Part shown: piece by piece, positions 761-57,985 of the stretch
Numbering within the stretch: position 1 is the first letter of the stretch
Layout: each line of letters starts with the position of its first letter
Assembly (NCBI RefSeq): GCF_020520425.1
Contig: NC_079489.1
Coordinates: forward strand, 20,484,001 to 20,548,000
Length of the DNA stretch: 64,000 nucleotides
Origin: Spinacia oleracea
Lineage: Eukaryota; Streptophyta; Magnoliopsida; Caryophyllales; Amaranthaceae
Direction of reading: 5' to 3'
Position numbers and translations under genes: made by a program
Notes under the pieces: generated by a model
What the model was told of the DNA's origin: nothing
Database searches by the model: none
What the model saw: only the letters and a program-made list of their open reading frames with translations

Positions 761-1465
761 AATTAAAAATTTATATTCAAAATTAATGACAAATTAATAA
801 ATAATATTAATTTCATAATTTTAGGGCGAAAAAATCGAAAATTTATTATTTAACTGATTTCCGATTAACATGGATTCAAGTCTAGGTCATAAAAATTTAA
901 AATTTAACATAAATTTACAATTTTTATGGTGGTTTTTAATCATAAGTATCTAATTAAATTATAACTAATTATGAAAATCAAATTAATTCTAAATTATTCC
1001 AATTTTCAACAAATTAATCATAATTACAAATTAGATTGCATAATTAACAAGGCTAGGCATTCAAACTTGTTAAACATATACAGTAGGTCAATCAAAAATT
1101 CAAGATTTATCAACAAGAATCGCAAATATTTAATTTAACATCTTAAATTTACGAAATTTTGCATTCGAAAAACTAAAACCTCCGAAAAGTCATAGTTAGG
1201 CTTCGAATTTGAGAATTCTGGGTTCGGCCGAAAATTATTATTTTTGTCAAAATTTTAGAATGCCTTTTACATGCGGAATTGACACAAAAATCACTCGATT
1301 TGGATGAGTAACGAAGAAACTGCCGAAAAACTGCGTACGTATAATTAAATAAACGCAATTTGCAATTAATTAACAATTACGAAAACTAATCACCCCTTTT
1401 TAATTCTTGCAAATTTGTAATATTTAACCATGTTTATGCAATTTAGATTATGAAAATAATAAGAG
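761..1465 (-). mobile_element. AT-rich internal region of the minus-strand Copia element
   Basis: This AT-rich sequence lies between the GC-rich block and the primer-binding site. I found no convincing open frame or domain; the 67-codon frame at 1173-1376 is not recognisable. Position alone suggests it is the leader of the element whose LTR is at 1480-2911. Confidence 0.4.
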
Positions 1466-1478
1466 GCTCGTGATACCA
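1466..1478 (-). promoter_or_regulatory. Retrotransposon primer-binding site
   Basis: On the minus strand this reads TGGTATCACGAGCC, close to the initiator-Met-tRNA site TGGTATCAGAGC used by many plant Copia elements. It is one base from the CA end of the LTR, the expected spacing, and shows that the element body runs left. Confidence 0.65.
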
Positions 1479-1479
1479 C

Positions 1480-2911: not shown

Positions 2912-3559
2912 ATCCCAAGAGTAGAGCAACACATCTGCTGGTCGGAGAGCTCCATCGTTCCCTCCAGAATCCAGATAGACCAATATCAACCTCTTTCCGC
3001 GCCGAGATCCCGGACCGATAACAAACATCAACAAGGCTATCTCGAACCACATTATGCCGATGTTTAATACCCACAATGCCAACACATGACAACGCATGAT
3101 CACCAAAGATGTCTCCCGCAAAGACAAATGTATTTCTTAGGGTTCGAACATGGGACCATCAAGAAGTAATGTAGAAAGTTTACCATCTCATCTAAGTATT
3201 AGTTATATTGCATTTTGTTATTATTATTATTATTATTATTTTTATTAAATATAATAATAAAAATTATTACATAATAATTAATAAATATAAAAATATAATT
3301 ATTAATTCGAGTTTACTGATTTTTTTTAGTATATAACGTTGGTATGCAAAAACGGGTACGAGGTCCCAAAAGGTGAAAAAAATATTCGGGTCCTAAACGG
3401 TGAAAAAATTAAAAAATCGGACCTTAACCTTTGTCTTAATTTAGTATTTGAGTGATAGTATGATTAACGGTGGGTTAAACTATGGTTAACTGGGCGGAAA
3501 ATGAATATGAGTCCCCAAAAGGTGAAAAAAAAAGTTGAGGTCCCAAAGGGTGAAAAAAC
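2912..3559. other. Intergenic DNA with a degenerate repeat family
   Basis: No gene is seen. A (TTA)n run sits near 3218-3240. From 3350 to 3559 the phrase GGTCC-(C/T)-AAA-(A/C)-GGTGAAAAAA recurs about four times, probably the terminus of an older element into which the Mutator-like element at 3560 inserted. Confidence 0.5.
3550..3559. repeat. Target site duplication, left copy
   Basis: GTGAAAAAAC here is repeated exactly at 5466-5475, immediately outside the inverted termini of the element between them. Confidence 0.85.
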
Positions 3560-5465
3560 GAGTAAACTGTTATGAAGGTCCCTGAACTTTGCCAAAAGGA
3601 GCAGTTTAGTCCCTCAAGTTTCAAAAGGAGCAGTTTAGTCCCTCAAAATGGATGGAAACCGCTACTTTTGTTAACACCGTTTGACTTTCCGTTAAATTGA
3701 ATAAAATAATAATAAAACTGCTTAAAAAAAAGAGAAATTAAATTACATGTGTATTAATGATTAAAAACAGCTGCTTTTGATTATTTGTTAGCCTTTTCAA
3801 CTTACTTGGCTTTTTCACATGCCTTTTTCTCCATGTACATGTTTTAACTTTTCATCTTCCCCCTCCCTGATTTCTTCCACTAATTTTTTTTGGCACAAAA
3901 TTCTCCTTGAGTCATTTTCATTTTATCTCTCCCCTCCCCTGTTTTCCTCTCATCTTAAACCCCCAATTATTAATTCTCTCAACTCTAATCAAAACTAGCG
4001 TTTTGATTTTCGTTCTCAATGTCTCAGTTAATACACCCCCAAACTCCTCCACTGTTGATAAAAACCCCTGTTTTAAAAGTTTTTTCTTCCCGTCAATGGC
4101 GAAGTTTTGCTTTACTCGACGACTTTGCACCGTAATCTAATTTCTTTTCACAGAATTTGAATCTATTCCACCAAATTCACATAATTCAGTCCATAAAATT
4201 TTTCTAAACAGACAAAAGAGAAGAAAAAACATAGGCTATTTTTATTAATTACTGTATTAAGATTGTGGACAACTTACAAGAATTGATTCTCAATTTGTGC
4301 GGAAGAGCTCAGATCAGTTGATGTTCTTGTAAGTTCTCATTGACCCACTTCATTAAATCATATTTCTCAATTACTCTTTTCGATTTTTCTTCTCATTTTA
4401 ACAAAATCCTGTTTTTACTTCTAATTTTTATAGCGTATTCAATCATCAACTAAAAACTCAAAACAAAATTCAGAACCCAGAACGAAGATTACACTTCACT
4501 ATAAAACAAAAATTGCAGGAAAAAAAAAACTGCAAAAATACACATTTCCCATTTTCTAAATAAACAATTAAAAAAAATTCCCCAATTTCCTTTAGAAACA
4601 AACAATTCAGAGCTTCCCAATTCACAACACTAAAAACCCACTTTAGAATTGCAACTTACAGAGCAGAAGATTAGAACGAAAAAAGGTGGAAGATGAAGAA
4701 GGTTGCAGAATTGTATGAGAGAGAGAGACGACAAAGGAGTTATAAAAAGAAAACACCTTAACTATTTCCAATTCCCAATTCCCAATTCCCAAAAGCACAA
4801 AGGAGAGACTGCCGCACAAATTTGATCGCTTTCTAGTTAATTGCGATTTTGCGCCTTGAACATTGTCTTTACTTTGTTTTATTTCTAGTAACATTGCTTA
4901 ATTATTGGTGAACTAGTCAATTCTATTATTAGAAGACCATCCCAAAAATTAAAAATTAAGAACCAACATATTAAGCAACAATGAAAAACAAGCTTCATGT
5001 GATTTCTTCGATTTGACAAGGAAAGCGATACCAGGGCGGTTGAATTGGCCTCTCTAAGAAGGTTCTCTAAGGAGTTGAATTGACGAGAAAGAGAAAGGTA
5101 TTTTAGAATAGAGTGGTAAGAAATGGAGGAGTGAGAAAAGTTGGGCTGCTGGGATTCCCAGTTGAAGAAACGTGATGAGTGGAGGAGAAGAAGGAACATA
5201 GAGATGATTATGTAGAAAAGCTAACTTAAATGCACTTGCTTTTATTTTTTAAATGATTTATAGGTAAAAGTAACTGTTATTTTGTCCTTTTCTGCCTTTT
5301 ATATTAAATTTCCTTTATTTTTAATTCATTTAACAGACGTTAGTAACAGAAGCCAAAAAACAACGATTTCCATCCATTTTGAGGGACTAAACTGCTCCTT
5401 TTGAAACTTGAGGGACTAAACTGTTCCTTTTGGCAAAGTTTAGGGGCCTTCAGGCCTATTTACTC
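3560..5465. mobile_element. Non-autonomous Mutator-like element, 1.9 kb, with gene-like cargo
   Basis: The left end reads GAGTAAACTGTTATGAAGG and the right end, read inward, GAGTAAATAGGCCTGAAGG. Both continue through ACTTTGCCAAAAGGA, CAGTTTAGTCCCTCAAGTTT and AAAATGGATGGAAA, giving inverted termini of at least 100 bases that remain similar further in. A perfect 10-bp direct repeat flanks it. Long termini with a 9-11-bp duplication are the mark of Mutator-like elements. No transposase is seen. The interior holds pyrimidine-rich, 5'-UTR-like sequence (3840-4020), a 38-codon frame from 4019, and a minus-strand PPR-like fragment, so it looks like a Pack-MULE. Superfamily is inferred from ends, not from protein. 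Confidence 0.8.
4885..5199 (-). pseudogene. PPR-protein gene fragment inside the Mutator-like element
   Basis: The 104-codon minus-strand frame opens with a stretch ending SSRFFNWESQQPNFSHSS, followed by SYHSILK and NSLENLLREA. This matches the usual start of plant pentatricopeptide-repeat proteins, where an A-L-x-F-F-x-W-x-x-x-Q-P-x-F phrase leads into the first repeat. Similarity stops after about 65 residues and the frame continues into hydrophobic, intron-like sequence. No second complete repeat follows. PPR proteins bind organellar RNA, but this piece is too short to work. I infer capture by the surrounding element. Identification is by eye. Confidence 0.55.
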
Positions 5466-5475
5466 GTGAAAAAAC
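5466..5475. repeat. Target site duplication, right copy
   Basis: Exact second copy of GTGAAAAAAC, directly after the TTTACTC terminus of the Mutator-like element. Confidence 0.85.
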
Positions 5476-5850
5476 CAAAAGGTTGGACCCCCAACCTTTA
5501 GCTTAACTCAGTGGAAAATGTAAGAGATTAGAGTGAAAAATGGCATTCCCCCTAGAAAAAGTTTGGCTTTCCCCCAAAAAAAATTATTTTCCAACTTTAA
5601 AAAAAAAAAAAAATTTATACCCTTAACAACACAAACAAAGAAAAATAATTTAAAAAATATTTTCCATTAAAACAAAAACAGGCTTAATCTAAACGAGTCG
5701 GTCCACCAAAATTGGAGAAATAAACCAACTTAAAATAGACTATTGGTAGAATGGTAGTAGGTGGCAACTCTTTTTAAAAAAAAATCAAAATAAGATTTGC
5801 TTTCAGCCTCATGCTCTCACTCTCACTCTCACCCACCCTCTCTCCTCTCC

Positions 5851-5858
5851 TATATTAA
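5851..5858 (+). promoter_or_regulatory. Possible TATA element of MTHFR
   Basis: TATATTAA lies 93 bases before the MTHFR start codon. CT-rich sequence on both sides fits a plant promoter and 5' leader. No transcript evidence is available. Confidence 0.45.
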
Positions 5859-5943
5859 CCCCCCTATTCTCCTCTCCACTCCTTGCCACACTCCTCTCTT
5901 CCTCCCTCCATTGCCAGATTCAATCTTCTTCTCCAGGAAAAAT

Positions 5944-8900
5944 ATGAAGGTAATCGACAAAATCAAAGCGTCGGAATCCTCAAACCAAATCCTCTTCTCT
6001 TTTGAATACTTCCCCCCTAAAACCGACGATGGAGTCGAAAATCTTTTCGATAGAATGGAACGAATGGTTTCACACTCCCCTTCCTTTTGCGACATTACTT
6101 GGGGTGCTGGTGGATCTACTGCCGATCTTACCCTAGAAATCGCAAATCGTATGCAGAACACTGTTTGTGTTGAGACTATGATGCACTTGACTTGTACTAA
6201 TATGCCTGTTGAGAAGATCGATCATGCTCTTGATACTATCAAGGCAAATGGGTTGCAAAACGTTCTTGCTCTTCGTGGGGATCCACCCCATGGACAGGAC
6301 AAGTTTGTTCAGGTTGAAGGCGGATTCGCTTGCGCGCTTGATCTTGTGAGTTTTACTCTGTATTTGTTGTTATGATTTGCGAACTGTTCAATTGCGATGT
6401 TGTTGTTGGTTCCATGTTAGATCTAATTTTCGGATATTCAATTTTTTGATTTCAGGTTAATCATATGAGGAGCAAGTATGGGGATTACTTTGGGATTACT
6501 GTTGCTGGTTATCCAGGTGAGCTGGGATAATACTCGTATAATTTTGCATAATTTTGTACTCCGTATTTAGTAATAAAATTGTGGATTGGCAAGTGTTTTT
6601 TATAATTGCGATTGTAAAAGTATGGTAAATTAGCAGTATGAATTAGTCATTAGCTTTGGTTTCTGCTTTAATTGGTTGCTTTAGCGGACTATAATTGATA
6701 ATTTAAGTGGTAAATAGCATTATGAATTAGTCATTAGCTAAGATTTTTGCTTTAAATGGTTTCTTAAGCTGAATATAATTGATAATTTAAGTGTTAATTG
6801 CGTGTTTAGTCATCAAAGTGGTTCTTTTATTAGCATATATTGAGGATCTGAATTTAGTCTGGTAATGTAATATTTACATTTTACTCCGTAGAAAATAATG
6901 TGCTTTATCACACTTTATCAAAATGTAGTTTTTCTAATTAATTCTACTATTGGTGGGTTTAATCTGTTTTTACCAAAGACTATCAAGTTCTTTACAGTAA
7001 TGTTTATTAAGTATCGAACCCATGGAAAGTTGTGTCGTTCACTTACAGGAGAAAACTTTGGGTTGTAATAGAAGTTTCAAAGTTTTTCCCATCTATTACA
7101 GATGAAATGCACATGATTTTGTTTGGGTAAAAACTAATCGAGTCATTTCCTGGTGGCTTACGGTTATTCTGTTTCATAATGTTTTGATGTAGCAAGTTTC
7201 ATATTTCTAGTACTGAGTTAATGAAGTGGTGGTTTCTCACTTTGATTAGTATCTGATATGCTGTCGTATTTTGAAATAATTTAGAGGCACATCCTGATGC
7301 TATTGAAGAGAATGGTTTGGCTACTCCAGAATCATATGCTAGTGATCTGGCTTACTTAAAGAAAAAGGTAATATATCTTTTTCTCTGAAGTAATGCCATT
7401 ACATTTGTGTATGTGTATGATCGCAATGCATTAGGTATATGATGACTTGATCTTGCGCTGCATTTATGCTTGCGCTTACACTGTTTCTTTTGCTAATGGC
7501 ATAGGTTGATGCTGGTGCTGATCTTATCGTCACTCAGCTGTTTTATGATACCGATGTTTTTCTGAAGTTTGTTAATGATTGCCGCCAAATTGGAATTAAT
7601 TGTCCAATTGTTCCTGGCATCATGCCCATAAATAACTACAAAGGATTTATACGTATGACTGGTTTCTGTAAAACAAAGGTAAGATCTTTTTACTTTATAG
7701 ATACTACTATATCTAATTGACATTTAAATGTGATTCTGGGATTTGAGTTTTCTATTATTCTGACTTTTGCTTCATGCCCTGAACTAACTTGCATGTTTTT
7801 GGCTGGAAAAATGTTGTAGATTCCTCAAGAGGTCACTGATGCATTGGAGCCAATTAAGGACAATGACGAAGCAGTGAAAGCCTATGGTATTCATCTTGGA
7901 ACTGAAATGTGCAAGAAGATTTTGGCTAGTGGAATCAAGCAGTTGCATCTTTATACCTTGAACATGGACAAATCTGCACTAGGAATACTCCTGGTAGCTT
8001 CTCACATCCTCTTTCATATAATGACCTTCTTGCTTGTAGTATGTTGATTTATATTTTATACAACTGCCGCAGAATCTTGGATTGATTGAAGAGTCCAAAA
8101 TTCAAAGGCCATTACCTTGGAAACGGCCAGCAAATGTTAACCGTACTAAGGAAGATGTTAGACCCATATTTTGGTATGTGCAATTCTTAATTTAATGAGT
8201 TTTAAATGCACAATCCTACTAATCTATGTCTGAAGATATTAATTTGTTTGGCATTCTCGATGATGGTTACAGGGCTAACCGTCCAAAAAGCTACATCTCT
8301 CGAACAATGGGATGGGATCAATACCCACAAGGGCGATGGGGTGATGCTCGTAATGCTTCTTATGGAGCATTAAGTGACCATCAGGTAACTTGAAGCCTTT
8401 TTCTGAAACTGGTTTATTGAAAATATCTTTTGTAATGTTGCTGAATTTAGTATACATGAGCAAACTTGAATATGTACTGTTTAAGTCCGGTTACTTGAAA
8501 AATAATCCCATGTACTATAAAGCTGAAGAGTACCCTCCTCTGTTGACACCCATATCAGTTTCTGGTTACAAAAGTGAAAAAGTAGGGCACTGACTACTCT
8601 TGAATTTTCATAACTAATCTCGAAACCATGTACTATGGTTTGTTGAAGGTGGAGTGTCGACAAAATTGGAAAAAGAGCCTTGAACTATGGCTAGTCATAT
8701 ACTCCCTAACATAGGTTCTGCAGGGCTTGAATGTATCAAGAAGAAATAAGAAACCTTCACTTCATTTTGCCAGACTGTCTATCTCATGCCCAGAGAATCA
8801 GAGATATGTTAGCGTATTCTCATGTACTATGTGCTCATCTTTGCTTTGACTTGTGCTCTCCCCTTTATCCCCTGCCTTTTGCTTGTCTTTTGCTTGCTCT

Positions 8901-10804
8901 GATCATTAATCTTATTCTTAATTCTATTGAGTGTAATTACCTTTGCCAGTCACATCTGTATTCTTGTTCTGTAAGTTTTGGATGAAGCTTCCGTTTGGCT
9001 TGAATGATGCACATTTGCCTAGCTTTTGTAGAATTTCTGTTTCAGTTGAGACTGAGATATTTCTCTGAAGTCTGGACATGTTATTTTATGTTTGTTACTC
9101 AAAAACTAATGGTAACATAATGCTTCTCTGTCTCGTGACAGTTTATGAGACCTCGTGCACGTGACAAGAAGCTGCAAGAAGAGTGGGCTGTCCCGCTGCA
9201 AAACATTGAAGATATATACGAGGTAGACTTCTATTTCTGCCTACATGCTGCAATCATTGGTAGAATGTTGATACCAGTTTTGTGGTGCCTGATGCTTTCT
9301 TTGTTATTTCAGATGTTCAAGAACTTTTGCCTTGGTAAGCTGAGAAGCAATCCTTGGTCTGAACTAGATGGGCTTCAGCCAGAAACTAAAATCATAGATG
9401 AACAACTTGGCAACATTAATAAGAAGGGTTTCCTCACCATCAACAGCCAACCGGCAGTTAATGGAGAAAGATCAGACTCCCCTACTGTTGGTAAGTCCTA
9501 AAATATCCACAGATATTATTTTAGTGTTTTCCCTTGTGCAGTTATATACCTTATTCTTTGTTCAACTCCAAGATGTATTTTGTTAAATGGTGATATTTTT
9601 AATTTAGTGGTTTTAATTCGAAACGAATTTAATCTGCGATATTGTGTTGATGGAAAGTTGGTATCAACTAAAAAGAATCTAAAAGCAATTTTACGTCGTG
9701 TAGTAGTGGAGCCTTGTGTGTGTGTCCCCTGATTTGATATCTTAGGATGCATAATTTTTTCCAACCGTTGGTGTGTACAAGTTTTCTATATAGAGTTATG
9801 TACTGCATTTCCAAGAAGAGGTACTTGGTCTATCCTTTTACTGGTTGTCTGCACATGTCTACTGGTATTTCTATTTTATGTTGTTGTCTGTGTTTCTGAT
9901 CAGGACTTCAGGTCAGAATTAGTTATATTATCTGCTATTTTTCAAGTGCTACATTCCCTTGATGTCTTGTTGCAGTTTTTGAATGATGTTTTCCAATAGC
10001 ACATAATATCATTGTTCCTAGGCTAAAAAGACAAGTGTGTTGGTGACTGTTGCTTTTTACACTACTTCGTTGATTAGTTAAAAGGAATAACGAATGAGGA
10101 TCACATCTCTTGTCGGAGTTGATTTTAGTCGGGCTTCTATTGCAAATTGGCTAAAAATTTATGTTCTACCTTTTTTCTGTAATATATGCTTTTTTCAGGA
10201 ACCTCAGATTGAATTTTCATCATTACTAAGATATAATAAACTTTAACCAAATGCTAATTTTCTTCAGGATGGGGTGGGCCTGGTGGATATGTATACCAGA
10301 AGGCATATGTAGAATTCTTTTGCTCGAAGGAGAAGTTGAACGCGCTTGTTGAAAAATGCAAAGCTCTCAAACACATAACCTACATGGCAGTAAACAAAGG
10401 AGGAGATTGGATCTCAAATGTAGCTCAAACTGGTGTGAACGCCGTGACATGGGGAGTGCTCCCTGCAAAGGAGGTTATACAACCAACTGTCGTGGATCCT
10501 GCCAGCTTTATGATCTGGAAAGACGAGGCATTTGAGATCTGGTCAAGATCGTGGGCTAAATTGTACCCAGAGGGTGACTCGTCCAAGACACTGCTCGAAC
10601 AGGTTTGTGCCTTTGACAACTTTCTTTCTCCAATTGTTGAGTTAGCTTGATTGCTTATTATCATCTTCTATACTATAGTGTTTGCACTTTTGTCTGATGA
10701 CATATATGTTACTTATACAGGTGCAAAACAACTACTACTTGGTCAGCTTGGTTGACAATGATTACATCAATGGTGATCTGTTTTCTGTTTTCACCGATCT
10801 TTGA
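5944..10804 (+). CDS. MTHFR: Methylenetetrahydrofolate reductase, 11 exons, 594 aa
   Basis: Reduces 5,10-methylene-THF to 5-methyl-THF for methionine synthesis; the plant enzyme is cytosolic, FAD-dependent and known to prefer NADH. Coding exons: 5944-6345, 6456-6516, 7285-7367, 7505-7678, 7820-7993, 8073-8173, 8273-8384, 9142-9222, 9313-9490, 10268-10602, 10721-10804. All introns are GT-AG and phases join exactly, giving 1785 bases. Length equals the family norm (about 590). The N-terminal barrel (residues 1 to about 300) carries [10 protein letters not shown] with the proton-donor Glu21, DITWGAGGS, and LRGDPP with Asp113 near the flavin. The C-terminal half has the plant-type [13 protein letters not shown] and ends [11 protein letters not shown]. 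The ATG at 5944 is chosen because MKVIDKIK matches the plant N-terminus; the frame is open to 5797 upstream, but that stretch is leader-like. No break seen. Confidence 0.97.
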
Positions 10805-20940: not shown

Positions 20941-21853
20941 TTTGCTCCTATAATCTTAATTTAAGGTTATTAATTTCCCTCGCCTCCTTTTTACCTATGC
21001 ACAAAAAATTCACTTTCCAACATAATTATTAATTTTAACAAATTGAAAATTTTGAAATTAAATTATCATGCGCACAAAATAGAAATATAAAAAATGACCT
21101 TATAGATATACAAAGACTAAAATTATAATGAAGTTAAAATTGATACATAACTAATTACTTCTAAATTTTGCTTAAGTTGTTCCCCTCAGTTGAAAATTTC
21201 GCAAGAAGGTACTCAACATGATAATTAATACGAAGTACCACAACATTGTAGCGTGCCACATTTATTACTTTTATTGTAAAATAAAATAAAATAAAATAAA
21301 ATAAACACATACTTTTACTTGCCCAACATGTCAAGAAGTTGAAATGAGTCTGTTTGGGTTAAAGCAAAATGAGCATGTCAAGTTGCATTTGACAGATATC
21401 GAAGGTCAAGTTACATCATCTTCAAAACGAGCAAATTAGTTTTTTTCACTTACAAGAAGTAATTCCGTCAAAATAAAAATAAAAGTCAAAGATTTAAAGA
21501 TATACAATCAGAGGAATAAAGGAATATATATACTTCCTCCGTTTCAATATCATTGCATCTTTTGTCTTTTAAAAAAGTTTCACAAATATTGCACCATATA
21601 CATTTTAGAAAATAAAATTGCTTTCACATTACAATATACCTTTGCATGTTACTCTTGTTAATTATTTAATGTTCCAATCATATGGGCAAGTTTATATTTT
21701 TGCACTTTTCACTTTTACTTTTTCCCTCAACCAAAAATCTATGCCCAACCCTTATCCTTCTTCATAGAATGAGAATCCTATGAATCCAACGAATAAAGTA
21801 AAGATGATCAATATAATCAGAGGAAATATCATAGTATTATTCATAAGGATATA
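20941..21853. other. AT-rich spacer
   Basis: No gene seen. (AAAAT)n at about 21276-21304. A TACTTCCTCCGTTTCAATAT at 21530 looks like one end of a further MITE, but I could not locate its partner. Confidence 0.5.
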
Positions 21854-22129
21854 CTCCCTCCGTCCCAAAATTATTGTCCAATTTTCTAAATCGGGCGTCC
21901 CAAAATTATAGTCCTGTTTCTAATTTTGTCTACTAAGGTCCCCACTTTCTCATGTACTTTATTAATTAAAAATGTATTGAAAACCCCACCCATGTACTAT
22001 ATTCCACTTTCCTATGTACTACATTCTTTTTCACATGTACTTTATTCCACTTTTTCATGTACTATAATCTATTTTTCTTAAAATCCGTGTTTTTGGTCAA
22101 ACGGGACTATAATTATGGGACGGAGGGAG
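21854..22129. mobile_element. Stowaway-type MITE, 276 bp
   Basis: CTCCCTCCGTCCCAAAATTA at the left and TAATTATGGGACGGAGGGAG at the right; TA on both sides. The same family occurs at 57486-57799 in the opposite direction. Confidence 0.92.
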
Positions 22130-22568
22130 TAATGAAATATTCTTATTTTCAAAATAAGTAATAGTAATACAAGATCGCGGCAATTTTGTTATCTTTAAAT
22201 TGATTTCATATGATTTTTTTCGAAAAACAAGAAGCCCTTTCTTTATATTCATTGTTAATGAGGTAAATAATTTTTTGATTAATCTTTTTCATATTTTTTG
22301 CCCCATAAAGGTATGGAATAAAAAGAACTACTTTTTTCACTGTAATTTTTTTTTTTAAAAAAGTTTGGTACAATAAATTTGGAAGGGAGAAAGTTTTTTT
22401 CTTTTTTAATTTTTTTTTTCACATTGATATCTATTTCAACATTGATATCTAGTTTAAAAAACAAAAATAGTTAGAATATTAAAAGTAAATTTTCAATTAT
22501 ATCATTATAGAAAAGGTCGAATCTTATATATTCAAAATACACGTAATATTGTGGATTGTCCAATTATA

Positions 22569-41601: not shown

Positions 41602-44600
41602 ATGTTTACTGAGATGTTGCAGTTTCTTTACAAGAGGAGTGGTGCTACTGCTTTCATTTCGAGATGCAGAAGCTTCAGTAGCGGAGTAGCTTGTGAGAAT
41701 GGTAGCTCATCATTTGCTGTTATGAGCTTTGGGGATGGCAGCCAGGGAGCTTTGGGCTTGCCAGCCTCCCTGATTGGTGTCGGGGCTGATGCTTATGAAC
41801 CAACTGTAGTACCTGGGCTCCCGGATGATGTTGTCAGTGTTAGCGCTGGTCACTACCATTCTCTTGCCGTGAGTGCTAAAGGGGAGTTGTGGGCTTGGGG
41901 TAGAAATGACGAGGGTCAGCTTGGTAGAGGTCTACTCGAACCCAGGTTTATAACCCTTTCTCTTCCCTATGTACTACATATATATTTTCAGATGCATCCA
42001 TGTTCAAATATTGTGCTTCAATTTTTTTAAATAGCGGTTAGGCAGAATCCAACAATCGCTGTCATGAAAGATTTCTGTTAAGCAGTTTACCATCTGCTGG
42101 ACAGCTTAGTTATTCTTGTCTCACTCTGCCTTTTCTGTTCAAGTTCATTTTGAATGGATTGTTTTAATTTTGTTGTTTAATTTGTGATACATTGGTTCCT
42201 TTGCTGCGTCTTGCTTAACCATCTTGTTTATACCTGCATGTTCTGGCATAAATATTTTTGATGCACTTGGTTGATTGAGATTGACAGTATCTGTAAAATT
42301 GGACAGACATAGGAGATCCATTTATATTGGAATAAAAGTTTAATACTATTGCACCTAATCACCAACAGCCTAGATGCATAGTTTTACTCACGTACTAAGA
42401 TAGCCGTGTTATGTGTGCATCTGTATTGGTTGACCTTTTTCAGTGAGCAACTGAGCAAGGGTATGAGGCTAACACTGATGTGTAGTGAGCAAGGGTATGA
42501 GGCAAATTGTTGAGTTAGGAAACAGGTGAATAAAGTTAGGCACCTAGAATAGCAGCAAGTAGATAGCTAGAAATTACTTCTCAAATAGCAGTTTCTCTGA
42601 CAGCTGCCCTGGTTCTAGTAAAATGGGGTTTTTTTAGAAATCAGTTGCAACCTAATTTCCAGCTTTCCAAACACTTTTTTCTTTCTACTTTCTTTCTCAA
42701 CAATCTTCAGTTCCTTGATAGAATTGGAGATTACATGATTTCATTTTCGGTTCTTGACTTTTTGTGTATCTGTTTTAGGCTTTCAGCTGCTTCTCAGGTT
42801 AGCATAGCTGGAGATTCTTAATCTTTCGATTTTAGTTCCTCTTGTCAGTTACAGATTTAGATTAAGACCACAGGAACTTGTTCATTTTCTTTTTGCCTTT
42901 GATATATTGTTCATTAAATTATGTTTTTTTTTACTTCAAATGTTTTTGTGTCTTGCTCATCTTCTTTGGTGGGTAGAGTAGGGTTAGAGCATGCGTACAA
43001 CTTAAAGGGTTGAATGAATTGATTTTGACAAGATGGAAAATAATTGACTCTTTTCAGTTTTCTAGATCATCATGGGGAGTTTATCCATAGTCAGCACTTA
43101 ATTCTCTAGAGTCTAGACTACCAACATTCGTTTAATGTCTACATTATGAGCTGATGTTTGCTTAATTTGATTAATGTATGTCCCCTCAGCCAAACATTTT
43201 TCGGATAAATTGTTTGAAGGACTGGCCTTATGGTGTATTAGTTCTTGTTGGTTTACTTCACTTGATCAAGGTAGTGCCTAAAATCTAGCACATTTAGGAT
43301 GAAGAACGTAGTTGGGAAGGCAGGTCACAATGTAATGTAATTCAGATGTGATCCTCACATTTGGCGGTTGAAACAAAGTGATTTCAATTGCTATGTATAT
43401 ATATGACGATTAAGAATATGAGAGAAACCTTACATCGTCATTTTTTTTCTGACGCTGTTCCTTGAAAAAAAAAGGGAAGACCGTGGTGGTTTGGCGCTAA
43501 TGTGCAACCTAATCACAATTATAGGCTTCTCGAGTGCTGTAGGTCTACCGGTTGCAGTTGGGGTTCTTGTGGATGATGCCTGACATGCCTCCAAATCTGG
43601 TACTAAACTACTAATGACTCTGATATTGAGGTTCTTAACAAGTTTTGGTTGCTGCTTTTAAAATGACCTAGGTACGTACCAGCTTGTATTCAATTCAACA
43701 TGAAAACTCAACATTTTTTAGCAAAATGATTATTAGAACACCCGCAACTGTACAGTGTGAGGATTAGACTGTTCTGCAATGTAAATGTAGTATTTTGGCA
43801 AGGTGGCTTGGGAGGGTTGTTGATGATGGGAAAGTGCTGTAAAATAATGTAATCAAGATAAAATGTGGTGTTGAGAGGTAAAAAACGGAGTCTTTGTCTA
43901 AAGAAATGCGTTGAGAAAGGGCAGGTAAACTGGAAGAAGAAGATTGCATCGGCTCATGGAGTAATAGTTTAGAAGCCCATCTTGTTGGGTTTTTAGTTTT
44001 CCATGTTGTTGTGGGTTTTGAGGTGGAGTGGGTGTTCATGAGTAATAGTTTAGAAACCCATCTTGTTGGGTTTTTAGTTTTCCATGTTGTTGTGGGTTTT
44101 GAAGTGGAGTGGACGTGATGGTGCTGTTTTGGTTTGATATGTAGAGTGGGAATCTGCAAAGAATAAGAAAGAGGAATGGAAGTAGAGGGAATATTCTCCA
44201 TAGTGCAGTTATGAGGAATTAAAGGGGGTAGGCAACATATTGGGCGTATTGGGATTTTAGTTTTCCATGTTGTTGTGGGTTTTGAGGTGGAGTGGGTGTT
44301 AGGTGCTGTTTTGGTTTGATATGTAGAGTGGGAATCTGCAAAGAATAAGAAAGAGGAATGGAAGTAGAGGGAATATTCTCCACAGTGCAGTTATGAGGAA
44401 TTAAAGGGGGTAGGCAACATATTGGGCGTATTGGGTTTTTAGTTTTCCACGTTGTTGTGGGTTTTGAGGTGGAGTGGGTGTTAGGTGCTGTTTTGGTTTG
44501 ATATGTAGAGTGGGAATCTGCAAAGAATAAGAAAGAGGAATGGAAGTAAAGGGAATATTCTCCATAGTGCAGTTATGAGGAATTAAAGGGGGTAGGCAAC

Positions 44601-47600
44601 ATATTAGGCGTATTGGGAAATGTTGAGAGATGCATTTTTACTTGAAAGAGCACCAACCTCTAGAAAGTTGGCTAGGTTGTAATTGGTGGTTTCCAGTCAT
44701 TCTACCTTAATTATCAATACAATCATATTTTACTAGTTTCCTCTTAACATGAGTAGATTTAATTATTAGTTCTTCTTAAGCTTCTTCTTCATTCCCTAAA
44801 ATCTTCTGTTCTAGTGAGAGAATAGCTAATGATCATCTTGATTCTAGCAGAATCCATCTCTAATATTCTAAATAACGCTTCTACCTAAATTTGCCTCTTT
44901 TAAGGATGCTACAATATTTGGAATAGTTACAAGAGGCGCTGACATGTATTCTTCCTCGACTTCTTAATTATTGGAGAGAAGATTCAGTTTTAAGTTTTCA
45001 GGATGGAGGTTGAACCTAAGCAGAGGAGTGAGGAGGAAATATTAGTGAAGCCTTCTAAAAAACAATGCCCATGCTGGTAGAGGTCAACTGTCAAAGAGAC
45101 AAGACGTCATCAGAACATACTATAAAAAAAGAAAAAAAAAAATTAAATTTCAGCAGTTCGCTATGGCCTATGGTTATGTCACGAGTGAGAAGAATCAGTA
45201 GCCTCCATTTTCTGTGGCTCGGCATCCATCTCTTTGCTAATCCATCTCCAACGATTAGTTTGGTTAATCCTTGTGAGGCTAAAGATGTGTTTGTTGTTTC
45301 GAAAAGAGGATATATTCTGGAATATGAAGACTCTGATTGCTGAAGTGTGCAGTTCCAATTTGCAATTTTGGTGCTTCATGTGGAAGAAAATTAACTAGTG
45401 TGTTTTCATTGTTGAGGGCAGAAATATCTGATGTATGACCATGCTTTTAAAGTGTCCTTAGCGTTCCTCTAATACATTCTTTGCAGAGAAATAAGAAAAA
45501 GTATACTAGTATAGTATCTACATCACAGAATCGTCTTTTAACTTTTTAAGTCAGGACTTGTTCTTTCCTTAGTCTGAGGTGTGTGGTTTAAAGTTGTAGA
45601 ATGCAAGTAATGAAAAAGTCAATGTTTTTTGGGTACTATAAGTTAAGTTACGGAATACGTCAAAAAGGGGTTTTTGAGTGTTATCAGTAACCAAAATTCT
45701 CTGTCCTTGGTAAACACTTTTCTTCTCCGTGGTTCTTTCAACTGAAGTCATTCAACCTTTTTCTCATTCTTGCTTCTTACTTTTTTTTGGTGATTTCTTG
45801 TTCTTCTCTCTTTGGTCATAGTTTTAGAAGTCCCCAACTCTCCATTGGCAATGCAAAGGAGAGCCTAAATGCTGCAAAAGTAAAACATAAGAAATGTAGG
45901 ATGAAAAAGACATCAATGTAACTTTATGTCTTGAACCAAAGTCAAGTGTGGAAATATCCCTTGCTCCATCAGTTAGTCAAGACTAATTGGTGTGCTAAAC
46001 ATTAAACCAGCCCCCACAGCATCCTAACCTCCTAAGCAAGGGGTGCCACCTCTTAAAGGGCCCAAAGTTTGAAAAAATCAGTCTCATCCTTCTAAATAAT
46101 AAATCAAACCTCTGCCACTTCACCTTTTTCCTTATTTTTCTAATTTCAAGCTCTCTAAATTTGTCAAAATAATACCATGGCAACGGGAAAGAAATTCAAC
46201 AAGTTAAATAGCAGCGTATATCACCAATTCTTCAATTCTCATCTCTTTTTCCTGGTTGTTTATTATTGACCTTAGAGTGGCTGCTCTTTTCTCCATAAAC
46301 GACAACTCCTTTAGCCTCCAGCCTTCCATTGCGAACTATACAGAGGTAACTGTTAAAATTCACACTTACTATATATAGCTATGCTATTAATTGAATGATT
46401 GATATACAAAATAATTGTAACCCATTAGTTAAATAGATAATGAGTTACTATATAATGTAACATTATGTTTTGTAAATATAGATAAAATAACAAAAACACA
46501 TTTTCTTATATCATTATTATTCCTTGTTTAATCATTTCCCACAATAAAACCATCAGGTGGTATCAAGAGCTATCTTGATCTTTCGGGCCACTTTTTTGTT
46601 AGCCTAAAAAAATACAAAAAAAGAAAGAAAATTACTAATAATAATAATTTGAAGCATGGCTTCATCTAGTTCAGCAATTCCTTCTGCACCACTTAATTAC
46701 GATTTTTGGTGCATCAAAATGAAGGCTTTGTTGACTGCTCTAGACTTATGGGAAATAGTTGAACAAGGATATATTCTTCCTCAACCATTAACTGGACAAA
46801 CAATTAACTACTGAACAACAAAGTTTAGTAAAAGAGAAAACCACGAAGAATGCAAAAGCAAATGCATATCTTCATTCTTCTATTGGAGAGACGATTTTTC
46901 CACGAATCATAAACACTACTTCGGCAAAGGAGTTGTGGGATACTCTCCAAGAAGATTTTCATGGCTCGGAAAAGGTAAGAGCTATTAAACTAGAAAATTT
47001 TCGAAGAGACTTTGAGAACTTAAAAATGAAGCAATCTGAATCAATGAAGGATTACACATCTAGAATCATAGATCTAGTAAACCAAATGAAAATCTATGGT
47101 GATGATATTTCCGATAAAAGGATTGTTAACAAAGTTCTTTGTACTCTTGATAGTAAATTCAATTTTAATGTAACTGCTATAGAAGAGTCCAAAGATCTCG
47201 ATAAATTGTCTCCTCAAGTGTTACTTGGGTCTTTACAAGCACATGAACAAAAGATCTCCGGTAGAAATGAAGGTTCATCGGAGGGTGCTTTTCAGGCAAA
47301 GAATAAACAAAGATCACAAAACTTCAAAACTTATAAGAATTAGTCAATGTCCAAAGTGAAAGTTGGTACAGGAAGAAAAGGAAAATTTTCACCTTGTGGA
47401 ATATGCAATAAAACAAACCACATGGAAAAAAATTGCTGGAATAAAGACAAAATACCGTGTAATATTTGCAAAAAGTCTGGCCATGAACAAAAAAGATTGT
47501 TGGTTTAAAGACCAGCAGGCCAAAGCAAATGTTTCTGAAAGTGGAATATTTGAAGATCAACTATTTGTTGCATGTCAATCCTCAATAGGAACCAACAAAG

Positions 47601-50600
47601 ACGTGTGGCTAATTGATAGTGGTTGCACAAATCACATGGCAAACAATGAATGCATGTTCATTGACATTAATACTTACATGTACACTCCTGTTAGAATGGG
47701 TGATGACTCCATTATAGAGGCAAAAGGCAAAGGAACAATTGCGGTACAAACAAAGAAGGGAGCACGTTATATTAAAAATGTCTTGTTTGTTCCTAATCTT
47801 GCTTCAAATTTGTTGAGTATTCCCCAGATGATGCAAAATAGATACTCCATTAATTTTGAGGGGAATTCATGCAACATCTATGATCAACAAGGGAAAGACA
47901 AATGAAAAATAAGAGTTCTCCTCTTTTATGGAAAAACCCAAAAGAAGAGGTAAATAGAATGGAACTTGCTGACTCTTGGTTATGGCACAAAAGGCTAGGC
48001 CACTATAACTTTCATGCTTTACAACTTCTTCATAGAAAGAATATGCTTAGAGATCTGCCACTCATGACCTTAGAAAAACAGGTTTGTGAAGGATGTCAGC
48101 GGGGGAAGATGCATAGAGAATCATTCCCACATAATCAAGCATGGTGGGCAAACGAGAAACTTGAGTTGGTACATACCGATGTATGTGGTCCTACGAGGAC
48201 ACCCACTGACGAGAACAACAAATATTTCATCCTATTTATAGATGATTTCACAAAGATGCAATGGGTATATTTTCTCAAAGAACGTTCTGAAGTACCAACT
48301 ATTTTCAAGAAATTTAAAGCCATGGTTGAAAATTAAAGTGCATGTAGAATGAAAAAAATTCGATTCGATAGAGGTAAGGAATACACATCAAATGTGTTTG
48401 ATAACTTTTGTGACGATGAAGGCATTACACATCAGCTTACGGTTGGGTACACACCACAACAAAATGGTGTACCTGAATGAAGAATGGAACAGTTATGGAA
48501 ATGGCACGATGTATGCTTTTTGAGAAGAAAATGCCAAAAAGATTTTGGGCGGAGGCTGTATTAACAGTCGTATATCTGCTGAATAGATGTCCAACTAAGG
48601 CAGTGAGGGATAAAACACCATGTGAAGTGTGGACAGGCGAGAAACCTACTGCAAAACACCTTAGGGTATTTGGCTCTTTATGCTACATACAGTTCCTGCA
48701 GAAAAGAGACACAAATTACAAGAGAAGGCAAAACGTGGCATCTTTCTAGGATAATGCTCGCAATCCAAAGGTTATCGTCTTTTAAATTGAAGACACGAAA
48801 ATTGGCGATCAGTAGAGACGTGGAAGTGGATGAGAACTCCTACTGGAACTGGGATGAAGAAAAAGTGGAAGGGCAACCTGCAATAACTGGGAATGTTTTC
48901 GAGAACAATGAAACACAAGGGCAAAATAACAATAATGAAATTCCACGGGATATGTCACCACCGAATTCTCCTAGAACACCACATGGATCTCCTAGAACTC
49001 CAAATAATGGCGAATCTTCTCCGGATTCTGTAAAATTGTAAATGCTACAGGACCAAGAGGTAAACGACTTGTAGCTGACTATAAAGATAATGCATCAGCT
49101 CAAGTCACCAAAGTTCAATTTGAATCATGTTATCTTGTTGTTTATGAACCTAACAACTATATTGAAGCTTCAAAACATCAAGAGTGGAGAAATGCGATGA
49201 AGGAGGAGCTAAAAATGATTGAGAAAAATCATACTTGGGATCTCATAGAGAGACCAAAACATAAAGATGTAGTTGAGTCAAGTGGGTCTATAGAACCAAA
49301 CATAGCAAGGCTCGTTGTAAAAGGATACTCTCAACAATATGGTACTGATTACACCGAGACATTTTCTCCTGTCGCGAGACATGATACAATAAGAATCTTA
49401 ATTGCCTTAGCTGCTCAACATAAATGGAATATTTTCCAGATGGATGTAAAGTTCGCATTCTTAAATGGCTATCTCCAAGAAGAGATATATGTCGAACAAC
49501 CAGAAGGGTTCGTTATTGAAGGAAAAGAAAATCAAGTTTATAAGCTTAAAAAAACGCTATACGGGTTGAAACAAGCTCCACGAGCTTGGTACAGCAGAAT
49601 TGATGAATACTTGCTGAAGTTTGGATTTGAAAGAAGTCCAAGTGAACCCACTTTGTAGGTAAAGCATACAACATCAGATTTGATGATTTTATCCCTATAT
49701 GTTGATGATTTAATCATTAGGGGAAATAATGAAGCAATGATTGCAGACTTCAAGAAGCATATGAAACAAGAATTTTAAATGACAGATCTAGGCTTAATGA
49801 ACTTCTTTCTTGGTTTAGAAGTAAAGCAAACAAATGAAGGCATCTTTATAACACAGAGAAAGTATGCAGAAGCTATCCTAAAGAAATTAAAGATGGATAA
49901 GTGCAAAGTTATGTCGACACCACTAGCTATAAATGAAAAACTTTCTAAAGAAGATGGAGCTGAAAAGACTAATCCTAGCATTTACAGGGGTATCGTTGGA
50001 TGCTTGTTATATCTCACAGCTTCAAGACCTGATCTAAAAACCCCAGTCAACTTCACTATTCCACTGCAAAGAGAGTTTTAAGGCACTAAAGAATTGGGTA
50101 TCTGGTACAAACCAACTAAAAGTTCGGAATTAGTTGGGTACTCTGATAGTGATTGGGGTGGATCTATTGATGATATGAAAAGTACATCAAGTTATGCATT
50201 TACTCTAGGAAGTGGAATATTCTCATGGCAATCACAAAAACAAGATAATGTTGCTCAATCAACAGCTGAAGCGGAGTACATAGCTGCGTGTGCAGTTGTG
50301 AATCAAGCCAATTTGGTTAAAGAAAGTGCTCAAACACATGGGGAAAGAACAATGTACTCCGACAAAATTACTCTGTGACAACATGTAAGCAATTGGTATT
50401 GCAAGGAAGCCTGTATGTCACAAAAGAACTAAACACTTCAAAATCAAGTATCACTTTGTGAGAGAGTCCCGAAGAGAAGGTGAAATAAATTTAACAAGCA
50501 AATACCTCTTTACATATTGAAAGTAACTAGAGTAACCATTATTAATTTGTAAGATTACTTAGATATTGAAATACCTCTTTACACTTTGTATAATTTATGA

Positions 50601-53600
50601 ATCCACTAATTGAGTGGTAATATGTGTGTTATTTTATAAACTTACCATGGTCTAATTTATTTATTCTTAATTGTTAACAGATTGTCATATAGTTGTATTT
50701 TGGGTTTTGGAATTGTGGAAATTTGGGATATCGCCAATAACAAATGTTCAATTTGAATTTTACGATTCTACTTCTTCATTGTTCTTTGATTTGCTACTTA
50801 GTATTTGATTTAGTTTTAGATCTTGCCTGGACAAAAATAAATTCGGTGGTGAAAGATGAAAAAAGGAGAAAACCAATTGAAGAGCTAATAAAATCAGAAC
50901 AAGGAGCTTTTGATAAATTTGTTTTTAGGAAGGTAGATACTCATGAAATTTTGGATCACTCAAATGAAGTGAAAAATTGGATCATGGAATGAAAATGATG
51001 AAGTTAATGATTCAAGAATTCCTATTGATGTGTCAATTGCGTTTAATATTAATAATCTTGGTGTTGATGTCATACTTGATGATGGACAAGAAACTCCTCA
51101 TCTTGATATTTATGATCCAAGAAATTGGGAGAACTTGATAACAAATGGAAAGATATTCTAGTAATTTTCTAGTATGCCCTTTGTCAACTAGAATGTCCTT
51201 CAATTAGGTATCAAGATCCTCCTGATTCTTGGATCATAAATATAGAAATGTGGAATTTCTTATTCATCATCAACACCAAGATTATCAATATTCTATGCAT
51301 TTGACACATCATTAGGAACACTTGAATCGTTAACTTCATCACTTTACGTTTTCATGATCTAACTTTTCATTTGACTAATCCAAATGTTCATTGCCATTGC
51401 TATCTTAATTTTCATTTGACGTGTCCAAATTTTCATGTTCTTAAAACAAATTTATCAAGAGATCCTTGTTGTGATTTTATTGGTTCTTTTGTTAGATCTT
51501 TTCCCGTTTCACACCACGAGATAATTTTTTTAGGCAACATCTTAATATAAACGAAATACTCAAATAATAAATCAAAGAACCATTACACCTAGAAGATGTA
51601 AATTGGAGAACTAGAATCATATAATTCGAATTGAACATTTGCTATTGGTGTAATCACAAATTTCGACAATTCCGAAATCCAAAGTTCATTTTGACAATCA
51701 ACATAAACAAATTAGAAGATGACAAAATTAATAACCAACATACAGTTAGTGAATTAATCAACTATACGAAAAATAAATAGGTATTTATCATCTATAATAA
51801 TGTGACAAATTAATAAGTCGTGAGAAAAGAAAAGAGGAAGCCTAGGAAGGAAGAACGGAAGGGTTACCTCGGAGAAAAGAGCAGCTAACAACAATATTCA
51901 CCACCATGATAAAGGTGAAGTGGCAGAGATTTGATTTATTATTGGACATTTGAAAACATGGAATCTGGCAAATTTGGGAACCGAAAAAGTTGAAGAGGCT
52001 GTAAAATAATGATTTTCGCCTTGACAACACCTTGTGAGAAGAAAGTAAAGAATGCATTTGACTTTTAGTTTTCCCAATTCCCCGCAATGTATTGCAGTAG
52101 CGGAGAAGCAACTCAAGCAACAGGCTGCAAGCCCAATTATAGGGCTTCTTTTCTAAAATATAAAACATTGGGCCTCCGGGCCTAGGCGGTTGCACCCCCG
52201 CCCCCCACTTAGCCTCATGATCGGGCCTGCATTTAACCTGGTATCGACTTCAGAAATTTTAAGAAATAGATAAGCTTTGTATTGTCTTTATCAGGCTTAT
52301 TTTAACTTATGTGGTAGCCATCTCATATAAGCCACTTGCGTCATTGCTTGAGAAGGATGCTAAATGTAATTACTCTATGCTCAAATACCGCCTTTAGGTT
52401 GTGCATTAATTTCTCAATCTTGCCACATCCATAGTTTTTAATAAGGATTACAATTTCAAGCTTGATTTTTGGAATTTCTTAATCCGCCCCTATCGTAGTA
52501 ATATTGCTACTTTCTCTGCAGACATTTATGGAATGAACCAAAGCTAGTGAAAGGATTAGCCAATATGAAAGTTCAATCTGCATTTGCATCCGGTGTAATT
52601 TCTGCTGCTATTGGTGATGATGGCTCTCTATGGACATGGGGAAGGTCCAAGCGTGGGCAGCTTGGACATGGGAAAGGAATAACAGATGCTCTTATGCCAT
52701 CCAAAGTGGAAGCACTCACTGGAGAAGATATAACCAAGGTGGTCACTATCTAATGCCTTTAAGGTAGAATTATAGTTTATCAACTGCTAGTCTTTTCAGC
52801 TATTTTTTTCCTTTAAAAAAAATACTTTTCACTATACGGAGTATATTCTATTCTGCTTTGTAATCCCTACCGCTGATGCTTTTCTTATTATTGTCAATTT
52901 GTACCACATTCCATTCCTCCTGAGGATTTCCCCTGATTTTAGCATACTATTTCAGGTGTCACTTGGTTGGGGACATGTGCTTGCACAAACAGTTGATAGA
53001 AAGTTATTTGGCTGGGGCTATTCAGCTGATGGAAGACTGGGACGGTTGGGAGAGAAAGTCAAAGCCTCACCATTAGATTCAAAAGCAGAATTACCTGGAA
53101 CACATGAGATGACACGCTCTGAAGCGTTAGATATTGCTGAGAAACATGTCTTGGAAAGTATGGAGAAAGAAAAAGACATGCCAATTGTGTGGGAACCACA
53201 TTTAATAGAAGAACTTCATTCCGTTCCCGTGACTGATATCTCTTGTGGTCTTGATCACTCCTTAGTCATTTGCGGTAAGTCATAGATTTATCTCATTTCT
53301 ACTATTTTTGGTGATTACTGCTTCAGAATTTGCCTAAGGGTATATCATATAAATTCCAACAGGGGATAGCACAATGCTAAGTGGGGGCAGTAACATCTAT
53401 GGTCAATTGGGGAGAGAAAACCAAGGCCTAGGGTTTTTTCCAGTTGACATGAGCTTTCGTCCGCTGTCAGTTGCTTGTGGGCTGGGACATTCCCTTGCAA
53501 TCTGTGCAACGGGGGAAGGCAATGATATCAGAAAAGCCTTATTTTCATGGGGATGGAACGGGAGTTCACAGCTTGGAAGGCCAGGCCTTGGCCTTGAGAG

Positions 53601-53835
53601 CAAACCATTGGTGGTGGAAAGTTTAGCTCCTGTAGCTGTTTCCTGTGGGCGTGTGCATTCAGTTGCTGTCACTGACGACGGACAATTATGGGTTTGGGGT
53701 TGTGGTAAAAATGGGAGACTTGGCTTAGGCAGCTCATTTGATGAATCGGAACCAACTTTAGTTGAGATTGAGGATTACAAAGTTGTCCAAGCTGTAGCAG
53801 GGTTTGATCACACACTGCTTTTGGTTGCTGAATAA
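41602..53835 (+). CDS. RCC1-repeat protein, probably mitochondrial, 4 exons, 450 aa
   Basis: Seven-bladed beta-propeller protein of the RCC1/UVR8 class. Exons 41602-41945, 52522-52738, 52956-53274, 53363-53835 join in phase to 1353 bases. Blade signatures in order: WGRNDEGQLGRG, WGRSKRGQLGHG, WGYSADGRLGR, GGSNIYGQLGRE, WGWNGSSQLGRP, WGCGKNGRLGLG, each preceded by a G-H/D-S/T-L/V-A strand. The first 25 residues (MLQFLYKRSGATAFISRCRS..) are basic and acid-free, like a mitochondrial presequence; the ATG at 41614 fits this better than 41602 (446 against 450 aa). Plant relatives of this size include the RUG proteins, one of which aids mitochondrial nad2 splicing; which one this is I cannot say. 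Intron 1 is 10,576 bases and transposon-filled. A leader exon ending near 41029 (GAG/GTATTG) is possible. Confidence 0.93.
42030..43960 (+). other. RCC1-gene intron 1, left part
   Basis: T-rich intronic sequence. No gene, repeat or element end was recognised. Confidence 0.5.
43961..44625. repeat. Compound tandem repeat: 81-bp unit twice, then 182-bp unit three times
   Basis: GTAATAGTTTAGAA at 43961 and 44042 sets the 81-base spacing. GGTTTGATATGTAGAGTGGG at 44131, 44313 and 44495 sets the 182-base spacing. The larger unit includes the TTTTCCATGTTGTTGTGGG core of the smaller, so it arose from it. Copies are near-identical, implying recent expansion. The minus-strand frame here (43764-44201) is a by-product. 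Confidence 0.95.
44626..46340 (+). other. RCC1-gene intron 1, stretch before the Copia element
   Basis: Unique-looking intronic sequence; the frame at 45065-45343 is not recognisable. No feature supported. Confidence 0.5.
46558..50515 (+). mobile_element. Broken Copia retrotransposon inside RCC1 intron 1
   Basis: A primer-binding site TGGTATCAAGAGC at 46558 follows a CA that should end the left LTR. Domains then come in Copia order: gag from 46655 (UBN2-type, best part 46933-47343), two CCHC knuckles (47395-47510), protease with D-S-G (about 47614), integrase-leading H-x-x-x-H region (about 47980-48110), integrase core (48170-48500), reverse transcriptase with the YVDD box (about 49695) and RNase H (50110-50490). 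At least seven frameshifts or stops break the polyprotein. Sequence stops being recognisable just after the RNase H segment and no right LTR was found. Dead, 3'-truncated copy in the same orientation as the host gene. Confidence 0.9.
50680..51699. repeat. Inverted repeat of hAT transposase-derived sequence
   Basis: The left arm (about 50680-51163) and the reverse complement of the right arm (about 51187-51699) share the same order of matches: GGAATTGT-GAAATTTG, CAAATGTTCAATT, GTTCTTTGATTT, AATAAAATCA-AACAAGGA, CTTGATAAATTTGTTTT, AATCTTGGTGTTGATG, ATATTTATGATCCAAGAA, ATTCTAGT. The centre is only about 25 bases. The left arm in one frame shows IKSEQGAFDKFV and later DIYDPRNWENL, phrases from the N-terminus of plant TTF-type zinc-finger/hAT transposase proteins. 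Both arms have stops and indels; by eye they agree at roughly 70 percent. It lies in RCC1 intron 1 directly after the Copia remnant. Confidence 0.8.
51700..52521 (+). other. RCC1-gene intron 1, right end
   Basis: The minus-strand frame 51842-52195 has no recognisable product. The GC-rich phrase GGCCTCCGGGCCTAGGCGG at about 52171 may be an old element edge. Confidence 0.4.
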
Positions 53836-57419: not shown

Positions 57420-57985
57420 TTCTCCTCACTCGAATTTCACTTATATTATCTTATCTTATCTTATTGGTGTTGAACTTATCTTATACTCCCTCCGTCCCAA
57501 ATTATAGTCCCGTTTGACTAAAAACACGATTTTTAAGAAAAATGGAATATAGTACATGGAAAAATGGAATAAAGTTCAAATGATGATTGAGTTGCATAGA
57601 AAATTGGAGTAGAGTACATGTGAAAAAGAATAAAGTACATAGAAAAATGGAATATAGTACATTGGTGGGGTTTTCAATGCATTTTTAATTAATATAGTAC
57701 ACTAGAAAGTGGAGACCTTAATAGCCAAAATTAGAAACAAGACTATAATTTTGGGACGCTCGATTTAGAAAACAGAACAATAATTTTGGGACGGAGGGGT
57801 ATTATCTTATCTTATCTTATCTTATCTTATTGACCCTTATGGAAGTTATAAAAATGTGTCCATTGAACTTATTGACCCTTATATTATCTTATCTTATCTT
57901 ATCTGAACTTATTGACCCTTATTTTATCTTATCTTATCATATCTTATTAAACCTAAATAAGTGAAAATAAGGTAACAAAAACAGA
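57420..57985. mobile_element. TTATC-repeat MITE interrupted by a Stowaway element
   Basis: GGTACCGTTCTCCTCACTCG with CACTTAT at the left and, inverted, GTTACCTTATTTTCACTTAT at the right suggest one Tourist-like element. Its (TTATC)n core resumes after the nested MITE at 57486-57799. Outer boundaries are approximate. Confidence 0.5.
57486..57799. mobile_element. Stowaway-type MITE, about 314 bp
   Basis: CTCCCTCCGTCCCAAATTAT at the left, ATTTTGGGACGGAGGGG at the right, TA flanks. Its interior is the reverse complement of the family at 21854-22129. Confidence 0.9.

Follow-up and report, generated by a model that had tools for sequence, protein, structure and literature searches.

A probable fossil hAT counterpart of maize Mu killer in the first intron of a spinach RCC1-type gene

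The best known transposon to have been rearranged into its own silencer is Mu killer of maize. Both of its terminal inverted repeats come from the mudrA-side end, and it carries two incomplete copies of mudrA that end in an inverted duplication (PMC3440606). In the available part of the same account, read-through from a flanking gene was proposed, with a hairpin of about 4 kb, and effective silencing was tied to short antisense transcripts (PMC3440606). Ac/Ds elements make an 8-bp target duplication and have short terminal repeats; the accessible text of that study describes no 5'-5' element and reports no double Ds in B73 (PMC3260210). Foldback and Galileo elements are marked by very long terminal inverted repeats (PMC3688188). 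In the literature that we searched we found no hAT counterpart of Mu killer, which is not proof of absence, and a spinach repeat survey with 397 hAT sequences uses no word beginning with "palindrom" in the available portion of its main text (PMC6337768).

Here we describe a palindrome at 46008-52229 of a 64,000-nucleotide stretch of spinach DNA (the window), measuring 2036 bp once a Copia insert is subtracted. In the reading that we favour, with a probability of roughly three in four, it would be a palindromic hAT derivative with two 5' ends face to face, lodged in an RCC1 intron, split by Copia, neutrally decayed and inert today. It is thus a probable fossil counterpart of Mu killer within the hAT superfamily. 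An earlier note on this DNA had drawn the Mu killer comparison, and for structure it is more apt than that note could know: like Mu killer, the palindrome contains an inverted duplication of part of the transposase, in two opposed partial copies, and both of its termini are of the transposase-side type, nearer the hAT 5' end, clearly so on the right and weakly on the left. Unlike Mu killer, which derives from MuDR, it derives from a hAT, is intronic and Copia-split, and is 2.0 kb long. Its arms are worn to 82%, and it shows no near-identity to the hAT loci compared: the longest exact arm match among 24 of 31 loci (L008 to L031, several overlapping) is 17 nt, though the genome searches give lower bounds and a closer living copy may exist. 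The likeness is one of shape, and the sequence shows no sign of present function.

The other systems offer partial parallels. With Ac/Ds the palindrome shares the 8-bp target duplication and short terminal repeats, but it is 5'-5', whereas Ac/Ds-type derivatives are internally deleted. With Foldback and Galileo it shares very long terminal inverted repeats, but it is hAT-derived, and no mobile family of copies was seen among the 14 or more matches of one search or the 40 scored of 259 candidates of another. It is most likely a fossil whose architecture, known but seldom reported, occurs here in a different transposon superfamily. An intronic, decayed hAT counterpart suggests that two-headed derivatives arise more widely, while a single copy proves no silencing. 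It also provides a search recipe for younger cases: same-end termini, one target duplication and an inverted duplication of part of the transposase.

The earlier note had placed the repeat in intron 1 of an RCC1-type gene that it took to be intact, and this proved correct. The four exons listed in Table 1, separated by GT-AG introns, join to an unbroken frame of 447 codons including the stop, or 446 residues. For a 148-residue piece of this RCC1-type protein, the best solved relatives are UVR8 chains.

Table 1. Coordinates, in the window, of the palindrome, its Copia insert and the host gene
Feature	Position	Strand	Basis
RCC1-type gene exon 1, first ATG assumed	41614..41945	+	
RCC1 intron 1, 10,576 bp, contains palindrome	41946..52521	+	
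Left target-site duplication CATTAAAC	46000..46007	.	7/8 versus 52230-52237
Outer piece of left arm, with hAT 5' terminus and leader	46008..46350	+	End versus L008 5' end; 34/36 block; leader matches L008, L010, L011
Copia retrotransposon remnant	about 46351..50536	+	Pfam domains; boundaries approximate
Inner left arm, hAT non-coding stretch and transposase N-terminal region	50537..51162	+	Inverted repeat, relatives
Loop / inversion junction, 24 nt	51163..51186	.	
Right arm, hAT N-terminal region to 5'-type terminus, opposite orientation	51187..52229	-	Repeat and L008 end scores
Right target-site duplication CATTTAAC	52230..52237	.	Pairs with 46000-46007
RCC1 exon 2	52522..52738	+	Pfam RCC1
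RCC1 exon 3	52956..53274	+	Pfam RCC1
RCC1 exon 4	53363..53835	+	Pfam RCC1

The inner repeat, 50680-51699, had been recognized in the earlier note as two arms facing each other across some 25 bases. We confirmed this by self-BLAST: the alignment of the stretch with its reverse complement spans 1101 columns, 162 gap positions included, at 68.0% identity (E 1.06e-106), and the loop is 24 nt long. Against the whole window the match extended to 50539-51816 (1385 columns, 67.4%, E 3e-121), stronger than any other of the window's 15 listed inverted pairs at E<=1e-5. The repeat is real, but it is only the core of the larger palindrome, whose outer arms and termini had been missed. A computational fold, which the note had suggested, gave a predicted -485.4 kcal/mol for 50537-51838, with 468 of 494 pairs running from arm to arm and a longest unbroken helix of 21 bp.

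Beyond the Copia insert the arms appear to continue. When intron 1 was compared with itself, 46095-46130 paired with 51943-51908 at 34 of 36 positions (E 3e-7) and 46245-46294 with 51914-51871 at 72% (E 0.34), the latter weak alone; both pairings are ordered as a continued arm would require. Aligned on their own, the outer arm pieces gave a score that was reached by 12 of 300 dinucleotide shuffles. With other gap costs and a slightly different stretch, they scored 126 against a maximum of 120.4 and beat 100 of 100 simple shuffles. The alignment of the outer arms by themselves is not secure, and this test alone is not strong; what argues for them is the 36-bp block together with the termini. 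In addition, the left outer arm resembles the leader regions of three relatives elsewhere in the genome, L008, L010 and L011 (64.8-65.6%, E 4e-8 to 2e-6); on the right, the last 400 bp of the arm gave no leader-region match at E<=1e-4, the terminus itself excepted.

The remnant that interrupts the left arm has broken frames and matches Retrotran_gag_2 (2.8e-27), RVT_2 (7.5e-45), Pol_BBD (5.7e-26) and gag_pre-integrs (1.1e-15) in Pfam. It separates the outer piece of the left arm from the inner one and has no counterpart in the right arm. Copia thus split the left arm at a later stage than the formation of the palindrome. The limits of the insert are approximate, because a few tens of right-arm bases have no partner there. 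GTAAC is found at each edge. No 3' LTR was detected, the insert ends sharing no long direct repeat (best local score 24), and so both the edges and the GTAAC repeat are tentative.

We picked the ends of the palindrome, 46008 and 52229, by eye and scanned for them afterwards; the junctions read CATTAAAC/CAGCCCCC...GGGCCTG/CATTTAAC. Among 228,310 end pairs (45700-46094 by 51944-52521), 141 had a flanking match of at least 7/8, six of these being 8/8. CA...TG ends occurred in exactly one of the 141, the pair 46008/52229; about 0.01 such pairs are expected at equal base frequencies, given 24 CAG/CTG pairs in the scanned ranges. Since CATTAAAC and CATTTAAC match at seven of eight positions, one site has changed in the 8-bp duplication. 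The two ends (73 and 75 nt) aligned with each other at a score of 14 against a background maximum of 10, which none of 2000 shuffles and none of 2976 random stretches of the window equalled.

The terminal inverted repeats are CAGGCCCG on the right, read inward, and CAGCCCCC on the left, as compared with CAGGCCCGGCCC in L008. The right end scored z 6.2 against the L008 5' end (0/1000 shuffles) and z 2.3 against its 3' end (14/1000); for the left end the values were 3.8 (0/1000) and 2.6 (8/1000). As a control, the 5' and 3' ends of L008 itself gave z 5.4 (0/1000). Because these two ends resemble each other, the call of 5' versus 3' is a matter of degree and the yardsticks are not independent. 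On these scores we assign the right terminus firmly, and the left terminus weakly, to a hAT 5' end. A separate candidate, CAGTAGCGG near 52097, was considered as the start of a small hAT and was dropped on inspection by eye.

That the arms come from the N-terminal part of a hAT transposase, as the earlier note had it, is borne out by relatives in the same genome, of which 894,210,420 bases in 242 contigs were searched. With the inner repeat as query there were at least 14 matches, two to itself and 12 at five places, which among the matches listed are C6:120.51 Mb, C6:92.13 Mb, C1:30.81 Mb and two neighbouring positions at C1:122.54 Mb. Both query arms match the same single copies. L008 is a full-length hAT of 3972 bp with TTCTCTAT on both sides (8/8); L010 is a hAT with TTAGCTCC on both sides (8/8) and a tandem second 5' end. 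The arm peptide matches an N-terminal stretch of the genomic copies (tblastn 3.75e-23 in L008). Three of five frames from L008, L010 and L011 match PF14291 (DUF4371) and/or PF05699 (Dimer_Tnp_hAT, hAT dimerisation), and the two N-terminal frames among the same five match no Pfam model. Of the two arm frames themselves, one had no match and the other matched only bPH_7 (0.0083, 16.1 bits against a cutoff of 25); joined into one peptide, the arms matched only SMP_LBD at 0.11. The hAT identity thus rests on the genomic relatives, because no Pfam model covers the arms. A scan of viral contigs found no relative.

The C-terminal dimerisation domain of the transposase is present in L008 and L010 and absent from the palindrome. 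With only the N-terminal region present, the palindrome can be at most a non-autonomous derivative and, to judge by its termini and target duplication, it is one within the hAT superfamily.

Some of the relatives are rearranged themselves. Within the hAT copy of L010 (1481-7421), about 1.9 kb is duplicated in tandem at 95% identity, repeating the 5' end; the 8-bp target duplication of this copy is intact. The locus of another relative, L009, is part of a palindrome exceeding 8 kb (529-9001), with hAT fragments near the centre; its pairs are 529-1642/9001-7875 (70%), 2185-3480/7330-6025 (75%) and 4067-4337/5385-5113 (88%).

The two arms of the spinach palindrome agree at 82.3% of 560 aligned sites, with 139 gap columns and a K2P distance of 0.203. 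Their differences fall on codon positions at 14/87, 16/88 and 12/89, on non-coding sites at 54/281 and on unassigned sites at 3/15. Both arms have decayed without coding constraint, the pattern of dead copies. Substitution rates of 1.3e-8 and 7e-9 per site per year would turn this distance, very roughly, into an age of 8-15 million years. In a tree of six sequences (the two arms, L008, two copies in L010, and L011; L009 was left out as too short), the arms pair with a support of 1.000. They are 75% identical to each other in that alignment and 56-59% to the four others.

The favoured reading can be put as a sequence of events. A TTF/DUF4371-type hAT would have given rise to a palindromic derivative with two opposed copies of its 5' end, each made up of terminus, leader, non-coding stretch and about 100 codons of the transposase N-terminus; the likely route is a repair error, or a transposition gone wrong, at a hAT. 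The derivative lies inside the RCC1-type first intron, bounded by hAT-like termini and enclosed as a unit in a single 8-bp near-duplication. Copia later broke the left arm, and both arms then decayed. Lacking most of the transposase, the derivative cannot move by itself.

A variant of this reading, possible though somewhat short of an even chance, is that the palindrome never moved: a full-length hAT would already have been in the intron, and repair there would have put the 5' half, copied in inverted orientation, in place of the 3' half. The same target duplication would remain, and no second palindrome was found in our lower-bound searches. The 14 inner-repeat matches, a lower bound, include no further palindrome of this kind. 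A census with the L008 5' end gave 48 matches, with no opposite-strand pair within 10 kb, by eye, among the 40 scored of 259 candidates. That census did not list the palindrome at 46008-52229 either, and other old ones would escape it too. Nothing specific speaks against formation in place; it and movement as a unit both predict the observed anatomy. Like-ended palindromes could result from aberrant repair following excision, or from an atypical transposition that takes an inverted repeat with it, as described for an Arabidopsis Ds with a 598-bp inverted repeat (PMC1978519).

It is unlikely that the arms were never one element, that is, that two hAT copies of one lost subfamily landed separately head to head and were each truncated. 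Some asymmetries would suit two insertions: a 45-nt unit is tandem in the right arm and single in the left, and the right arm has about 200 bp near its end that are absent from the left. Against this, the two copies break off within one and the same region of codons on either side of the 24-nt loop, and the only duplication found with CA...TG ends encloses both arms.

The remaining question is silencing, since the earlier note had proposed that the locus could feed small RNAs against related hATs. Under the favoured palindromic-derivative reading, the host pre-mRNA would carry a long, imperfectly paired hairpin that would probably be lost together with the intron, and any small RNAs would act mostly on the locus itself and not on the hATs that remain in the genome. 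The note had counted the divergence of the arms, which it put at roughly 70 percent identity, as a weakness. The objection is weak when taken alone, because mismatched hairpins can still silence: in tobacco, a transgenic hairpin mismatched at one position in four silenced 33 of 33 lines, ten of them strongly, though its antisense arm matched the target perfectly (PMC9263138). On these comparisons, the weak point of the silencing idea is the match to the target, not the mismatch between arms. Exact 21-mers of the inner arms occur in four hAT loci in 0/619 cases for the left and 0/656 for the right, and 21-mers of every arm piece gave no exact match in those loci. Within two mismatches there were at most 10/619 (left inner) and 10/656 (right inner). 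Five of the 619 left-arm 21-mers lie at one mismatch from L008 and from L010, beside the 17-nt exact core near 51106-51122.

We regard it as improbable that the palindrome, when young, acted as a natural killer of hATs, a dominant silencer of the Mu killer kind that arose from one hAT, was expressed from the RCC1 intron and helped to extinguish its own subfamily. If true, this would account for the lack of a close relative of the arms in our searches and for the persistence of a diverged, recently active hAT family that such a killer could hardly recognise today. That it still acts is very unlikely. An active natural silencer of this kind would work as proposed for Mu killer: read-through pre-mRNA would fold, Dicer-like enzymes would cut it, and the small RNAs would repress related hATs. 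Its Mu killer-like layout, the strong predicted fold, the tolerance of mismatched hairpins in plants (PMC9263138) and the patch around the 17-nt core are what one would expect of such a locus. The lack of an exact 21-mer in four hAT loci, the 17-nt limit on exact matches, the low identity to the four relatives over the aligned region and the decay of both arms all argue against it. A present silencing role is not supported by the sequence matches, and in its present state the palindrome appears too degraded to silence those related elements that we compared with it. Least probable of all is a young microRNA precursor born of an inverted transposase duplication: an imperfect long foldback in an intron would fit, but arm identity is even (79-89% per 100-bp bin) with no short stem preserved, and Rfam gave no match over the window at gathering thresholds, where a new microRNA would not show.

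Elsewhere in the same intron, a 182-bp unit is repeated three times in tandem (96% matches) at 44066-44618 and adjoins an overlapping 81-bp repeat at 43954-44112. At a larger scale, 21843-22131 and 57484-57810 form a distant inverted pair in the window, 79% identical over 329 columns.
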